Virus record (IMG/VR): IMGVR_UViG_3300025410_000098
Coordinates: 1-20,758 of that record
DNA from: a virus
DNA: 20,758 nucleotides
Strand: one strand, 5' to 3'
Shown: positions 2,211 through 19,517 of the stretch, one piece after another
Layout of the letters: the number at the start of each line of letters is the position of its first letter
Numbering within the stretch: position 1 is the first letter of the stretch
Notes under the pieces: generated by a model
Database searches by the model: none
What the model was told of the DNA's origin: nothing
The model's input: the letters and a program-made list of their open reading frames with translations, nothing else
Made by a program: the position numbers and the translations under genes

Positions 2211-5200
2211 TTATGTAGCGATGCTTAATGCAGTCAACGATTGTCCGCTAGTCAGTTTAACTCTGACATAGATTTCATTACTCTTATTACCAGCACTTGA
2301 TGTATTTACAGATCCTAGTGTTACTTGGACGCTGTATGATCCGTTTGAGTTCAGTGTTGCGTTACCACCAACAGCACAGCCGTTAGTACCGTTACCGCCA
2401 GTACCTGTACCTGGAACACCAGCACCACCATAAGCAGAAGCACAGTTTAACCATCCGTTGGTTGGACTTGCTGGAGTATCTGTTACACCTGGACAAGCCA
2501 TCCACAAGCCAGCCAATGTGCCTGTATAGTTGATGTGGAATGTAGACAAAGCTGCCAATGAAAACTTGAATGTGTAATATTGGCTACTGCTACGACCCGA
2601 ACTTAAGTTTGGTCCTACTGGATAATAACCACTTGAGTAGTTTGTAATATCATATTGTAGTTTTGCAGCCACCACTGTTGCGTCTGTTGACAACAATGTA
2701 CTAGACGAACTGTTAAATGCACTTTCGCTACCAGTGTAAGCAGGAGTATCTGCCGCAGTTCCGCCGTCTGGGTTGACAATACGGAATGTACTTGGCGCAC
2801 CACTCAATGTGTTGGTCATTGCAGTTTCTTCAATCTGCGTAGTCGTACCTGTCTTATACAAAATAATGTTTCCTGGGGCAAATGCTCCGCTGCTAGTAGT
2901 TGCATATGGAGTTGAAACACTTACTGCTGGTCCAAGTGTTGAAGCTGCACTACCAAATCCTGTTGTTACGTTTGACGTAGTTGAGAATGAATAGGGTGAT
3001 GCATTATTGCGTGTCAGCGGAAGAGGAACACCCACCTGCGCTAGTGTTCTGTTGGCCGGAGCTAGTAGAGCCCCACCCGATCCAGTTGATGAGAAGAAGT
3101 TAGCACTAGTGCTTGACCAAGCTGAATAATACAAGTCACCGCTCAAGTTCTGCACAGTACCAGATAGAGTAAAGCCAGCACTGCTGTTCAAGTGAGGGAT
3201 AGTACTTGAATATGTAACTGTGTTACTACTCAATACCATGCTTGTTGCACTGAAAGCAGGGGAGCTAGGAGCACTTGCGTCATAGTACCAAGTAATTGTG
3301 TTTGTGCTTGCACCGTCACCAGTATAGTACAAGTTAGTTCTGTTCCAGCCACTAGAGATACCAGTCAGACTGCTAGAAACACTGAAAATATACCAGAACC
3401 CAGCTGGCACACTGCTTGATACTACGTGATAATCTTCTGCCGCAGAAATTGTTATTTGTCCATATGATCCGTTGTCTGCGCTTGAAGCAGTAGAACTAAA
3501 ATTATGATAACTGTTTGATGGAATAGAGCCATTGACAAACAACTGAATATTGCCGCCACTGGCAGTTGTACCGTTGTTTGATATTGTATTAAGACCAAAT
3601 GTACTTACTCTGGTAGAAGTTGAAACTAAAGTACCAGCACTTACTGCCAAGTTACCCCAACCACTGTTGTCTACCTGAGACCAACCACTTGTCATATAAC
3701 CCGAGTACTCGCCTGTACTTGTAGTCAGAGTGCTTGTTGGGAAACTTGATGGAGCGCTTGGTACTAGCTTACCTAAAATTGCGTTCAATTGAGCCACAGC
3801 ATCTGTTATATCAGTGCTACTAGTCAATGATACAGCGTTACTTACTAACTGTCCTGCTGTGTTAGCGCCAAGCTGAATACTATTACCCAGCAATGATGCG
3901 AAGCTCAAGTTACCCGCACCGTCAGTAACGATAGTATAGCCACTAGAGCCACCAGTGATCTGTACGTTGCTGATACTACCTAGACCAATCTTACCAGTGT
4001 TGCTACTAATTGCATTACCGTAAATAGTCAAGCTACCAACACCAGAGTTAGCGACAATGTTACCAGTAGTGTTTACTGTAGTGAATACTGCTGTGCTCGG
4101 AGTTGTACTACCAATTGGGGTAGCCTGAATGCTACCAGCGTATAATGAACCCTGAATACCAACACCACCTGCAATCTGCAATGCACCTGATGTAGTGTTT
4201 GTGGCTGCTGTAGTAGATTTAACTACGAAAGCGTTACCGTTGGCCTTGATACGACCGTATTCATAGACATTACTAATGTCTGTACCGTTTGTAGCAAATA
4301 TGATATCGTTATGAACAGATGCTAGTAATAGATTACCGCCACCAGTATTTGTATTACCATGAATATACAAATATCCGTCATTTGGACCTTGTGTTGCTGT
4401 GGGAGTGAAACCACTTGAGTTAATACCAAAGTCAATATATGTATCAACTGCTGTACCGTTGTCCGCAGTGGCCACATAGTCTGTACTTGCGTTCGAACCG
4501 CTGCTGATGTTTTGATGGTTAAGCTGTGCGTATCCGTTGAAGTTTGTACTGTTTTGTATTACTGTTTGTGGTTGATATACGTACCCACTATTGATACCAG
4601 CATACACTGCACCAAAGCCACTGGCATTACCAAAAAACTGAGCGCTGTTACCAGTAATAGTGCTTACTGCATTAGGAGTAAAGTTAATGTTACCAGCGAC
4701 CCACAAGTTACCAGCAATGTAAGTGCCGCCCGCAACTTGTAATGCCCCAGATCCAATGCCTGTTGTTGCTGTAGTTGCTGTAATGTTTGCTGTTGTGAAT
4801 ACTGCTGTACCAGGAGTAGCGTTACCAATTGCAACTGCTTGCAACCCACCCACTGTGGCAGTGTTTAAAGTTGTTGGGCCAGTTACGACCAATGTACCAG
4901 TTGTTTCGCTGACTGATACCAAGTTACCGACTTTGACGTTAGCAAACCCACTGCTGGTTAAACTTGTAGCATTTGTCGCAGTACTAGTTGTAGCAATAGC
5001 TTCAAAGGCCTGATCGTTTTCGACCCAAACCCAAGCAGTGTTGACTGAACCGTATGGGGCTAATGGTGTCAAGTTACGATTGATCAACATACCAATGTCG
5101 TAACCGCTCAGAGAGCCACCGTATCCGTTGTTGAAAGTAACGATTGGGTCGTTGATGTACGTGTTAGTAGCGTTAATGGTTGCAGCATTACCAGTATTCG

Positions 5201-8380: not shown

Positions 8381-9118
8381 TTAGTTGCTTTGAACTTTTA
8401 CAAAAGTTGCGTTAGGACCTGCACTTGAGTTTAATACATAACGATACTTGGTAGGGTTGTAACCACTTGTGTAGTAAGTCACTGTACCATTTGTACTGTC
8501 CATTTGACCATCACTTGTGAAGTCATAGACAAACTTGTTAGTGATACGACTTGCATATGTGCTAGTTGTAACACCAGTTACGCTGCTTTGTGCACCAACG
8601 TTACCGTTTGTAGCAATAGTTACGTTACTTGTACTGTTGATTGCAGTAACACGTGCAACACCTGCGTTACCAGCGAAACCGATGATGTAATCACCGACAC
8701 GTGGAGTAGCATAAATGCCAGTTGGAGTAGAACCCCAAGTGACGTAAGTGCTTGTTGCGCCACCAGCTACGTTGGCTGCTGCTACAGAAGCTGTACCAGT
8801 GTTCAATGTAATCAAGATGTTCATTTGACCAGCTGTCAAGTTTGGACTGTTTACCAATGTGCAATCACCTGTACGTGTACCGTCAGTGACGCGGAACTTG
8901 TGAGCACCTTTTTGTGCAACAATACTACCAGTAGTAGATGAACCACCAGTCAAGTAGACCTGAGGTTGAATCTGTAGACCAGTATCGCTTGTCAATCCGC
9001 CTACGCCGCCAACGTGATAACCGTTGACCAATGTTGGGCTTACAAAACGATCACCTTCTGGTTGTGGATATGTGACGCTAGTTTGTGTTGTCTGATTTGC
9101 TATTTTTAGTTTTGCCAT
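8381..9118 (-). CDS. Virion structural protein, 245 residues, possibly head decoration
   Basis: This is a Thr/Ser/Val/Gly-rich protein starting MAKLKIANQTTQTSVTYPQP, with a GAHKFRVTDGTRTGDCTLVN element around residues 70-90 that I associate with structural proteins of T4-like marine phages. It has no transmembrane or enzyme motif. It forms its own transcription unit: a perfect late promoter at 9190-9183, a 5' leader hairpin (9150-9165), a strong AAGGAG ribosome site 6 nt before the ATG, and an intrinsic terminator at 8318-8346. The position two genes after the major capsid gene and the isolated strong signals fit an abundant protein made late, such as a decoration or tail protein. That reading is inference. 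Confidence 0.7.
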   Translation of the reverse strand: MAKLKIANQTTQTSVTYPQPEGDRFVSPTLVNGYHVGGVGGLTSDTGLQIQPQVYLTGGSSTTGSIVAQKGAHKFRVTDGTRTGDCTLVNSPNLTAGQMNILITLNTGTASVAAANVAGGATSTYVTWGSTPTGIYATPRVGDYIIGFAGNAGVARVTAINSTSNVTIATNGNVGAQSSVTGVTTSTYASRITNKFVYDFTSDGQMDSTNGTVTYYTSGYNPTKYRYVLNSSAGPNATFVKVQSN

Positions 9119-9149
9119 TTTGTTCTCCTTGTTACGGTGTTCTAGACCG

Positions 9150-9165
9150 CCACTTGGCTAAGTGG
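9150..9165 (-). promoter_or_regulatory. Hairpin in the leader of the 245-residue protein mRNA
   Basis: A perfect 6-bp inverted repeat (CCACTT / AAGTGG) with a 4-nt loop lies in the roughly 58-nt leader between the late promoter and the ribosome site. This leader is longer than the others in the window. It could stabilise the mRNA, which would suit an abundant virion protein. Function not shown. Confidence 0.5.
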
Positions 9166-9182
9166 AACTCAGTTGAGTAGTG

Positions 9183-9190
9183 TATTTATA
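9183..9190 (-). promoter_or_regulatory. Late promoter TATAAATA
   Basis: Perfect T4-type late promoter box on the minus strand, 64 nt from the ATG of the 245-residue protein and directly after the terminator of the 17-residue peptide gene. Confidence 0.8.
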
Positions 9191-9201
9191 GTTTGGTCAA
9201 T

Positions 9202-9224
9202 AAAAAACCCGCCGAAGCGGGCTT
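9202..9224 (-). terminator. Intrinsic terminator with UUCG loop
   Basis: On the minus strand CCCGC-TTCG-GCGGG, extended by weaker pairs, is followed by six T. It begins right after the stop codon of the 17-residue ORF. Confidence 0.9.
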
Positions 9225-9226
9225 GT

Positions 9227-9280
9227 TTATTCTTCTTCGCCGTCGTCTTCGTCTGGGCCGTAGATAGCTAGAGTGTTCAT
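9227..9280 (-). CDS. 17-residue acidic peptide gene
   Basis: The ATG at 9280 opens an ORF coding MNTLAIYGPDEDDGEEE and ending in TAA at 9229-9227. An AAGGA ribosome site lies 6 nt before the ATG. A late-promoter variant TCTAAATA at 9321-9314 lies 33 nt upstream, the common spacing of this window. Intrinsic terminators bound it on both sides: that of gp23 upstream and a UUCG-loop terminator 2 nt after the stop. The peptide has a short hydrophobic head and a tail with eight Asp/Glu in the last nine residues. I recognise no family. With its own promoter, ribosome site and terminator it looks like a real gene for a small late peptide, perhaps a virion or capsid-binding peptide. An alternative is a leader ORF or a small RNA that happens to be translated. 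Confidence 0.65.
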   Translation of the reverse strand: MNTLAIYGPDEDDGEEE

Positions 9281-9313
9281 TTTAGTTCCTTGTTAAGAGC
9301 TTACGCTCACCTG

Positions 9314-9321
9314 TATTTAGA
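9314..9321 (-). promoter_or_regulatory. Late promoter box TCTAAATA
   Basis: One base from TATAAATA on the minus strand, 33 nt from the ATG of the 17-residue peptide gene and just downstream of the gp23 terminator. The same variant precedes the gp67-like gene. Confidence 0.6.
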
Positions 9322-9332
9322 GTATAGCCAAC

Positions 9333-9355
9333 AAAAAAGAGCCTTGCGGCTCTTT
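9333..9355 (-). terminator. Intrinsic terminator of gp23
   Basis: On the minus strand AAAGAGCC-GCAA-GGCTCTTT is an 8-bp perfect stem whose 3' arm runs into a tract of T. It lies about 48 nt after the gp23 stop codon. Confidence 0.9.
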
Positions 9356-9403
9356 CTTGACTCCCTCTGTAACCCAGTCGAAACTGGGCTCCCGAACAGA
9401 AGA

Positions 9404-12385: not shown

Positions 12386-13546
12386 TTACTTAGCGCCTGT
12401 GTTCTGCTTTTGAACACTGGTTTTGTTTACTGGGCGGCTACCGTCAGCACCAACTAGCTTGCCTTCTGGTCCAGATTTTTTCTCTGCGCCGTGACCTGGC
12501 TCTTTTGTTTTGAACGCTGTCTTACCTGCGTTGCCACCGGGAACGTTTTTAAACTGTCCTGCGCCTGGCAAGTCTCCGCGGCCTTTTGTGTATTCATTGC
12601 TTGGAGCTTTGAATGCTTTGCCGTCTGGATTAGCGTTGTCACCTTTGCCGCTAACGATATTTTCGTTAGTTCCGCCAAAGTCAGCGCCTGGGCCTTCGAT
12701 AGACTTGTGGTTGATAGTTGGCTCATCGCCGCCTGTACCAACTGTCTTACCTTCGCCACTAGCTGGCTCTTGTTTGTAGATTTCGCCGATCTTGTCAACG
12801 TATTCTTTCATGATTTCAACTTCTGACTTACGGCGTGTTACAGATTCCATTTTGCCAGAACCGCTTTTGCCTGAACCGGATTTGCCCATGCTTGTACCGC
12901 TACCAGATTTTCCAGAACCAGATTTAGCAAATGGGTTAGCAGATTCCATTTTACCAGAACCAGACTTGCCAGAACCGCTCATGCCAGAACCGCTCATGCC
13001 AGAACCCATAGTTTCCATCATGCCTTCATCTGCTTCTGCAGAACCAGAACCACTTGTGTGTTCTTCGCCGCCGTCCATGTCAAAGTCGCTTTCGCCTGCC
13101 TCGCCACCCTCGACGTCGCTAAAGTCTTCGCCGTGTTCAGCACCTTCGTCGCCCAACATGGCTTTCAATTCAGCCAATTGAGCTTCTAGGTCATCTAGTT
13201 TAGAAGTGATTTCTTCGTGTTCACCGTGCTCGCCGCCCATGCCCATTTCGCCGTCACCGCCGAATGTTTCTTCGTCACCGAATTCTTCGCCGTCCATGTC
13301 GCCACCGTCTAGTTCGATGTCGCCACCTTCCATGTCGTCTTCGCCCAAGCCCATGTCTTGAGCTTGATCGTTTTGGTTAGTAATGTCTTGAACGAAACCT
13401 TGTGAAGCGTTTCCGCCCATTTCTTCGTCCATTAGACTTTCGTAGATTTCACGTGACTTAGCAACCACGATATCGTGGAATAAAGCACGTGCTGCTTGTT
13501 CGTCTTCATTAAGAATGCTCTCAATGAGTTGTTCATACTTGTTCAT
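12386..13546 (-). CDS. Expanded prohead core protein, gp67-like N-terminus
   Basis: The first 40 residues (YEQLIESILNEDEQAARALF, then HDIVVAKSREIYESLMDEE) resemble the helical start of T4 gp67, an 80-residue acidic core protein. The position between gp20 and gp21 is that of genes 67 and 68. Here the protein has 386 residues in four zones: helix 1-42; an Asp/Glu/Gly/Met tract 42-165 broken by a coiled-coil-like helix at about 112-132; a Ser-Gly tract 165-234 built of GSGM and GSGK units; and a Lys/Gly/Pro-rich tail from about 235. The change from very acidic to basic along the chain is striking. A late-promoter variant and AAGGAG 8 nt before the ATG mark the start. Relation to gp67 is recalled homology of a short segment; the rest has no family I know. 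Confidence 0.7.
   Translation of the reverse strand: MNKYEQLIESILNEDEQAARALFHDIVVAKSREIYESLMDEEMGGNASQGFVQDITNQNDQAQDMGLGEDDMEGGDIELDGGDMDGEEFGDEETFGGDGEMGMGGEHGEHEEITSKLDDLEAQLAELKAMLGDEGAEHGEDFSDVEGGEAGESDFDMDGGEEHTSGSGSAEADEGMMETMGSGMSGSGMSGSGKSGSGKMESANPFAKSGSGKSGSGTSMGKSGSGKSGSGKMESVTRRKSEVEIMKEYVDKIGEIYKQEPASGEGKTVGTGGDEPTINHKSIEGPGADFGGTNENIVSGKGDNANPDGKAFKAPSNEYTKGRGDLPGAGQFKNVPGGNAGKTAFKTKEPGHGAEKKSGPEGKLVGADGSRPVNKTSVQKQNTGAK
12845..13054 (-). repeat. Coding Ser-Gly repeat tract in the gp67-like gene
   Basis: About 70 codons encode imperfect units of SGSGM and SGSGK, interrupted by MESANPFAK and MES segments. At DNA level units such as CCAGAACC recur with synonymous changes, so the tract is not a fresh slippage product throughout, but pairs of units near 12975-13010 are almost identical. 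Confidence 0.8.
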
Positions 13547-13645: not shown

Positions 13646-13888
13646 TCAGATACCACCTGGCCCCGCAACTGGTTCAGCACTGGCACCGTACTGATCCTTG
13701 ATATCTTTCATCTTGGTTTCGAATTCAAATTTACGCACATCGTTAGCCATACGTAGACGGTTTAGATGTGCTAGAGTAAGACGAGTCTTGCGTAAATCAC
13801 TGAGTTTCATTACGCTGTTATCATCTTGTTCACTCTGATAGCCTGGCTTTGCAGGCTCTGGTGATTCAAATAAATCTGATATAAACAT
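13646..13888 (-). CDS. 80-residue protein next to the portal gene, function unknown
   Basis: The product starts MFISDLFESPEP and continues with a helical, basic-acidic region (KLSDLRKTRLTLAHLNRLRM and DVRKFEFETKMKDIKDQY), ending in a Gly/Pro/Ala tail. A small conserved protein of this kind is common between portal and core genes of marine T4-like phages; a capsid-core role is possible but unproven. A perfect late promoter box ends only 5 nt before the ATG, so a transcript starting at the usual distance would have almost no leader, and no ribosome site is visible. Met27 (ATG at 13810) is an alternative start, also without a good ribosome site. Both readings leave the gene's expression unusual. 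Confidence 0.7.
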   Translation of the reverse strand: MFISDLFESPEPAKPGYQSEQDDNSVMKLSDLRKTRLTLAHLNRLRMANDVRKFEFETKMKDIKDQYGASAEPVAGPGGI

Positions 13889-13893
13889 ACTGT

Positions 13894-13901
13894 TATTTAT
13901 A
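13894..13901 (-). promoter_or_regulatory. Late promoter TATAAATA
   Basis: Perfect box on the minus strand, 7 nt after the gp20 stop codon and 5 nt before the ATG of the 80-residue ORF. It could instead chiefly serve the gp67-like gene further on. Confidence 0.7.
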
Positions 13902-17979: not shown

Positions 17980-18825
17980 ATGGTTAACCAAGCTAATCCA
18001 TTAGCCAAGCATTTCCGCCAACCCGCACTGTATCTTAGTCTACCCAGCAGAGGAGTGTTTTACCCTGAGGGAACAGTGGAACTATCTGCCACTGGGACTA
18101 TACCCGTTTACCCAATGACAGTCAAAGATGAGTTGGCCTTGAAGACACCAGATGCTTTATTGAACGGTCAAGCAGTTATTGATGTTATTCGCAGTTGCTG
18201 CCCTGGAATCAAGGACCCTTGGGAGATTCCTGCTGTGGATCTTGACCCTATATTCATTGCCATCAGATTGGCAAGTTATGGGAAAGTCATGGATTTCAGC
18301 GCTACTTGTACGCACTGCAAGACAGAAAGCGATTACTCAATAGACTTAAACATGGTTCTAGACAGTGTTGGTAAAGCAGATTACAACAGACCGTTTACGT
18401 TTGATAATCTAGTGTTCAAGTTCAAACCACAAAAGTACAGAAACATCAACAAGATGGGTATGATTACATTTGAACAAGACAAGCTAATACAAAACGTTGT
18501 CAAGAATGAGACCCTGAGCGAAGAACAAAAGATGCTAGAATTCAAAAAGGGATTTGAAAAGATACGACAGTTGAATATCGATACTGTAGTAGACAGCATT
18601 GCCAGTGTTACCACAGAAGAAGGTGTAGTTGTCACAGACCCTGCAATGATTGCTGAGTTCTTGGATAGTTGTAGTCGTCAGATATATGAAAGTATCAAAT
18701 CATCTGTACAAGAACTAACAGATACTTTTAAGATCCAACCCCTACAACTTAAATGCGATAATGAAGAATGCCAAAAACAATTTAGCACTGAGCTGACATT
18801 CGACCATAGCAATTTTTTCGGTTAA
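17980..18825 (+). CDS. 26: T4 gp26-like baseplate hub or tail-assembly protein
   Basis: The 281-residue product resembles the T4 gp26 family (hub assembly). Support: the opening LYLSLPSRGVFYPEGTVELS (17-36), a helical middle region, and two Cys pairs, C110/C113 in ATCTHCKTE and C259/C264 in LKCDNEECQKQF, which may bind zinc. It ends SNFFG. I chose the ATG at 17980, not the upstream in-frame ATG at 17920, because GGAG lies 8 nt before it and the late promoter box lies between the two. The last sense codons include TTT TTC, which with the preceding T form a slippery heptamer (18813-18819), and the -1 frame leads into the next ORF. Position beside the tape-measure gene suits a tail-assembly chaperone. 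Family call recalled, not searched. Confidence 0.82.
   Translation: MVNQANPLAKHFRQPALYLSLPSRGVFYPEGTVELSATGTIPVYPMTVKDELALKTPDALLNGQAVIDVIRSCCPGIKDPWEIPAVDLDPIFIAIRLASYGKVMDFSATCTHCKTESDYSIDLNMVLDSVGKADYNRPFTFDNLVFKFKPQKYRNINKMGMITFEQDKLIQNVVKNETLSEEQKMLEFKKGFEKIRQLNIDTVVDSIASVTTEEGVVVTDPAMIAEFLDSCSRQIYESIKSSVQELTDTFKIQPLQLKCDNEECQKQFSTELTFDHSNFFG
18813..18819 (+). promoter_or_regulatory. Candidate -1 ribosomal frameshift slippery site
   Basis: T TTT TTC in the gp26 frame fits the X XXY YYZ rule perfectly. Two codons after it comes the gp26 stop TAA (18823-18825). In the -1 frame the next codons are CGG TTA AGG CTT TTG CGG ATG, open through to the stop at 19047-19049. A strong stem begins 2 nt downstream, or 6 nt if the AT-rich base of the stem is melted. 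Confidence 0.65.
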
Positions 18826-19350: not shown

Positions 19351-19373
19351 GCCTATATTACATCCTATTCAAA

Positions 19374-19504
19374 CAACCAAATCGCAGGTCTTACAAGCGA
19401 TCTTCATCCAACTGGGTAGTGGTTGAGCACTCTTTACAGCAAAGAGATTTCCGTCCGAGTGATCCTAGATCCTCTTATCGTGGGCACACGGAGTTAGCCT
19501 GTGC
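19374..19504. other. Second cluster of hairpins in the non-coding region
   Basis: Between the terminator and the accessory genes lie, in order: CAACCA / TGGTTG (19374-19379, 19420-19425) enclosing ATCGC / GCGAT (19381-19385, 19397-19401); CTCTTT / AAAGAG with 5-nt loop (19430-19446); GAG-GATC / GATC-CTC with one bulge (19457-19474); and GCACA-GG / CC-TGTGC with one bulge (19484-19504). This fits a folded RNA, but strand is unclear: no good U-tract follows on the minus side, and on the plus side an eight-T run at 19523-19530 is 18 nt past the last stem. No coding potential was seen. Confidence 0.35.
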
Positions 19505-19517
19505 GAGCCGTACTGTA

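Follow-up and report, generated by a model that had tools for sequence, protein, structure and literature searches.

The cassette behind the capsid gene

The window analyzed here, a 20.8-kb virus record taken over its full length, comes from an uncultured freshwater T4-like phage. Its gp23 product is a clear member of PF07068 / PHROG 138; among 2485 phage records, the 30 that were listed, most of them jumbo phages, show 63–69% identity to it. Directly behind this capsid gene lies a 17-codon open reading frame (ORF) enclosed by its own expression signals (Table 1). A sequence-only reading had described this arrangement as a complete miniature gene comprising a promoter, an AAGGA ribosome site, 17 codons, and a UUCG terminator; the cassette region was read on both strands, and each of these parts was found in place on the minus strand. 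The terminator closing gp23 is absent from the list of the consensus terminator scan.

Table 1. Elements of the mini-gene cassette and its borders in the window, in order of transcription
Element	Position	Strand	Detail	Basis
Intrinsic terminator behind gp23 (upstream border)	9333..9355	-	stem AAAGAGCC/GGCTCTTT, GCAA loop, T-run	direct reading
T4-type late promoter variant	9314..9321	-	TCTAAATA	promoter scan
5' hairpin of predicted transcript	9297..9308	-	GAGC-GTAA-GCTC	direct reading
Ribosome binding site	9287..9291	-	AAGGA, 6 nt before ATG	direct reading
17-codon ORF	9227..9280	-	MNTLAIYGPDEDDGEEE + TAA (ATG 9280, TAA 9229-9227)	reading and homologues
Intrinsic terminator	9199..9224	-	UUCG loop; stem 9224-9205, then T-run	reading and terminator scan
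Late promoter of next gene (downstream border)	9183..9190	-	TATAAATA	promoter scan

The promoter bordering the cassette downstream has the sequence given for the T4 late promoter in PMC3014915. The spacing between promoter and ATG had been likened to that of much larger genes, which is only partly borne out: the 33 nt of the mini-gene compare with 33 nt for a 1046-aa gene, 34 nt for the 386-aa gene at 13546 (where the same octamer TCTAAATA recurs), and 35 nt for the gene at 17980, but the 245-aa gene next door has 64 nt. Similarly, eight of the last nine residues had been counted as acidic, whereas PDEDDGEEE contains seven Asp or Glu residues; basic residues are absent, and the charge of the peptide is about –7. 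Elsewhere in the window, at 13888-13901 on the minus strand, TATAAATA ends 5 bases before the ATG of an 80-aa ORF, which may be a late gene almost without a leader, or a gene whose true start lies further in.

The chance expectation for such a frame was evaluated by shuffling and by comparison with reversed controls. When the 89-base stretch separating the promoter from the terminator was shuffled with dinucleotides preserved, 33 of 20,000 shuffles gave a Shine–Dalgarno (SD) site followed by ATG, at least 17 codons, and a stop. Across 1.07 Mb of loci plus the window, short SD-preceded ORFs following a late-promoter motif showed no excess (17 versus 20 in reversed controls), and a terminator immediately behind such a promoter–SD–ORF arrangement occurred only in the window (1 versus 0). 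Short SD-preceded ORFs with at least six acidic residues among their last nine were confined, within 3.0 Mb of fetched DNA, to the micropeptide family described below.

Divergent homologues and the reading frame

The first pattern searches for the mini-gene returned matches in the window's own species only. Three loci (L082-L084) carry it at 99.8–100% identity and, belonging to the same species as the window, are uninformative on constraint. A degenerate search of IMG/VR for YGPDEDD yielded 25 stretches, comprising three from the window's species, 19 unrelated, and three divergent homologues at the loci L173, L182, and L190. The L173 homologue, MNLLTIYGPDEDDGEEE, retains the full 17-residue frame with an SD site and the late promoter TATAAATA; it lies behind gp23 and one 75-aa gene, with a 50-aa gene immediately after it. 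L182 and L190 share the homologue MNLLAIYGPDEDDGEEE, again a full 17-residue frame with an SD site, preceded by the late-type promoters TATAAATA and CATAAATA, respectively. Here the mini-gene stands upstream of an AhpC/TSA (AhpC-like) gene, with a terminator ~60 bases past the mini-gene, and away from gp23 within the sequence examined. The gene before it encodes a 179-aa protein with no family assigned in L182 and a MUG113/T5orf172 nuclease-like protein in L190.

Ungapped comparison of the window with L190 gives identities of 7/30 upstream, 48/54 (89%) in the ORF, and 8/30 downstream, the flanks being at chance level, and the blastn local alignment covers 9225-9280 only, that is, the ORF and two bases past its stop. 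The corresponding values for L182 are 13/30, 49/54, and 8/30, with an alignment (9225-9295) that extends 15 bases upstream of the ATG and includes the ribosome site. The alignment with L173 spans 9227-9349, so that promoter and leader are common to both, and divergence begins exactly at the stop codon; the L173 hairpin is related to GAGC-GTAA-GCTC, but changed. Relatives had been proposed as the place to look for a conserved frame and codon-level constraint, with retention of promoter and terminator but loss of the frame pointing to a small RNA. The reverse is seen: divergent relatives keep the frame and the peptide while they differ in promoter, leader, terminator, and location within the genome. 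Start codon, SD site, and in-frame stop are all conserved among them, as expected of a micropeptide gene. Conservation restricted to the ATG-to-stop interval, together with the small number of residue changes, argues for a protein-coding unit, the opposite of a small RNA.

Within the frame, codons 3, 5, 6, and 8 vary among the four lineages, with synonymous changes in all four codons and no insertions or deletions; residues change at two codons only (T/L at 3, A/T at 5), and the variable codons differ mostly synonymously (ATC/ATT, GGC/GGT, CTA/TTA, GCT/GCA). In neutral simulations, the probability of so few residue changes was 0.006 for window–L190, 0.021 for window–L182, and 0.06 for window–L173, and 0.08, 0.21, and 0.21 for the other three, closer pairs. 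These results suggest fewer residue changes than neutral substitution predicts for two of six pairs (P below 0.05), in tests that share sequences, are not independent, and involve few changes in all.

Of the 36 bases that run from codon 7 (TAC) through the stop codon, one varies among the four lineages (a synonymous GGC/GGT change), and the N-terminal codons vary more; the near-invariance of this tail DNA rests on four sequences. Between the window and L173, the codon is retained at 14 of 15 shared residues in the mini-gene compared to 216 of 331 conserved residues in gp23. Codon preference in the window is 0.78 for GAA and 0.55 for GAC. The near-invariant tail could reflect recent spread, codon preference, or a second, nucleotide-level signal acting in the RNA.

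Genomic setting and distribution

To evaluate the position behind gp23, 80 other gp23-bearing loci from IMG/VR were checked over up to 420 bases downstream of the gene (8 of the 80 being shorter), and none carries the mini-gene there. In the 20 loci read, the position is taken by a gene beginning MKTLLVSFGDSW, by nuclease-like genes, or immediately by the leader belonging to the structural gene found next in the window, gene likenesses being judged by eye. The same variable picture was obtained among those read of 42 loci found via the next gene. The stretch just behind gp23 (window 9200-9400, minus strand; counterpart in L002-L025) has the character of a hypervariable insertion site: otherwise close relatives show by eye a hydrolase-like, nuclease-like, or membrane-protein-like gene, or no gene.

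When 50 out of a set of 67 related records were searched with a profile, exactly the three known carriers matched (E about 1e-13), leaving 47 without the mini-gene, and a DNA pattern allowing three mismatches recovered the same three. The records are mostly fragments, and absence from any single one is therefore weak evidence; nevertheless, close relatives without the mini-gene mark it as accessory. It had been suggested that such peptides could be missed in many phages, a possibility that these four lineages and 47 of 50 related records do not support for the 17-residue family. Broader pattern searches revealed no new member among 55 of 57 stretches examined, among 38 new stretches examined of 41, or among 71 new stretches examined of the 80 matches listed (of at least 119). 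Two scans of genome contigs gave no matches, nor did a 26-residue tblastn search of phage records, in which low-complexity filtering may have masked the acidic tail. A DNA match in phi92 was rejected because it is a terminator adjoining the end of an unrelated gene, and the peptide sequence was not found in the literature searched.

The surroundings of the homologues have features of their own. The L190 contig encodes proteins that by eye resemble UvsX, gp32, and the terminase large subunit. In L182, genes for an AhpC/TSA peroxiredoxin and a carboxymuconolactone-decarboxylase-family (AhpD-like) protein lie behind the mini-gene (2009-2548 and 3270-3842), and a borderline tRNA-Sec match at 4598-4682 on the plus strand (47.2 bits against a threshold of 47) may represent a tRNA whose variable arm is long. 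The 179-aa gene and the mini-gene face each other in L173 (1-324 and 510-563, respectively) and are co-directional in L182; one of them has therefore been inverted.

Candidate roles and alternative readings

The 17-codon ORF is very probably a real gene rather than a chance frame or a small RNA, and from its sequence we infer that it is translated. On the joint reading, which we consider highly likely, it represents a genuine late, mobile, trans-acting accessory micropeptide gene. A promoter identical or similar in sequence to TATAAATA lies upstream in all four lineages, making a T4-type late gene likely; because every member carries a late-type promoter, the peptide would likely be synthesized late in infection. 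Its N-terminus, short and hydrophobic, would read MNxLxIYGP; its C-terminus, acidic and invariant, would read DEDDGEEE and end at the stop. The unit appears to move between genome positions and to acquire new promoters, leaders, and terminators, with the ATG-to-stop frame kept. Since the downstream context changes, cis-acting roles are unlikely and a trans-acting accessory peptide is favored, presumably one acting through the conserved acidic C-terminus. Most likely, the acidic tail would dock onto a phage or host protein at a basic surface, the peptide serving, like other phage micropeptides, as a small inhibitor or modulator; the inhibitor role also raised by the sequence-only reading is possible. 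A more specific proposal, speculative and rather doubtful, is a mobile late effector that would block or redirect one protein, its invariant acidic C-terminus imitating the acidic surface of a partner, with the last 36 bases perhaps carrying a nucleotide-level signal. If true, such a 17-residue effector would be one of the shortest phage genes to travel alone between genome positions.

The peptide might instead be a small head component residing in the prohead core or the virion, comparable to the core-protein fragments of T4, which we judge unlikely. The late promoter and the location behind gp23 in the window, and likewise in L173 with one gene between, are consistent with this role, and T4 gp67/gp68 offer a likeness as small late head-region products, given that the window and L173 mini-genes lie in the head cluster. 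However, the L182 and L190 copies are not near gp23 in the sequence examined, and most relatives have no mini-gene. According to PMC9026906, the T4 core fragments are cut from larger precursors at L/I-X-E by a gp21-type protease, whereas the 17 residues contain no such site and would be encoded directly, with their own start and stop; the peptide thus does not appear to be an internal head peptide cut by gp21 from a core precursor. With the mini-gene before an AhpC-like gene in L182 and L190, its placement after the capsid gene is no constant feature, and a capsid-bound or scaffold-like role, suggested earlier, is not established given two of four lineages that carry it away from gp23.

A small regulatory RNA, made up of a promoter, a 5' hairpin, a short body, and a terminator around an accidental frame, would fit the compact promoter–hairpin–terminator layout and the nearly invariant tail DNA, and RsmY, matching below threshold (19.1 bits where the gathering score is 57, E 0.03), points the same way. 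Yet L182 and L190 conserve the interval from ATG to TAA but not the structured parts, leader and terminator; moreover, in L173 a second small gene directly follows the ORF with no terminator there. No Rfam family scores above threshold at the cassette, and the chance-level flanks between the window and L190 hold no sign of conserved sequence outside the frame, leaving this reading quite improbable. The RsmY, isrB, and Trp_leader matches were rejected as far below their gathering scores.

It is very improbable that the ORF is a leader peptide or upstream ORF controlling the following gene in cis through attenuation or translational coupling. In the window, a few bases separate the stop codon from the stem of the terminator, and in L173 the stop codon overlaps the SD site of the 50-aa gene (TAAGGAGACTGCAATGG), but what follows differs among the lineages: a terminator and late promoter in the window, the 50-aa gene in L173, and a terminator and AhpC-like gene in L182 and L190. 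No downstream gene is constant across these settings, and the conserved acidic C-terminus would be unneeded in a leader. Least credible is that the ORF is what remains of a longer gene, in decay or cut to its N-terminal stub, such as the genes beginning MNTLLVSFGDSW or MKTLxVxFGDSW at the same place in L005-L007: position and first codons agree in L005, but residues past position 4 are unlike that gene, four lineages share the same frame and stop across at least two settings unrelated to each other, and this shared stop codon led us to reject the simple form of the reading.

Among known phage products, T4 Stp is a 26-residue peptide that inhibits type Ic restriction and activates PrrC (PMC3014915). 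Like the predicted mini-gene product, it is a phage peptide far below the usual gene length and conserved among relatives. Stp acts on a host complex, and the two are likened in kind only, by description; unlike Stp, the mini-gene stands behind late promoters and its peptide is acidic at the C-terminus. The kind of gene is therefore known from phage micropeptides such as Stp, and the family is apparently new. Fremin et al. reportedly predicted phage small-gene families in 2022, and these would resemble the mini-gene as short, conserved, unannotated phage ORFs. Because gene finders usually set a minimum length above the size of such ORFs, the 17-codon ORF is a concrete test case: very probably under protein-level selection and moving as a unit, as judged from sequence alone. 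Intergenic gaps elsewhere in phage genomes could be examined by the same criterion, a stretch conserved exactly from ATG to stop between flanks at chance level.

Structured RNAs also occur near the cassette and elsewhere in the window. The leader of the next gene (9116-9190, minus strand), right after its late promoter, matches the freshwater-2 RNA (RF02980) at 18.3 bits; this neighboring late-promoter leader (9184-9116) belongs to the next gene and differs from that of the mini-gene, which has no UAGAAC hairpin. Freshwater-2 RNA matches of 40.3–45.7 bits, just below the gathering score of 49.9, were obtained in L129, L110, and L114, in the latter two upstream of a homologue of the window's next gene, and no match was found in L091. 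Since the leader matches after a late promoter, the freshwater-2 RNA is tied to late genes of T4-like phages. In addition, a Polynucleobacter-1 RNA (RF01718) lies within this phage window at 19371-19509 on the minus strand, with a score of 101.8 bits.
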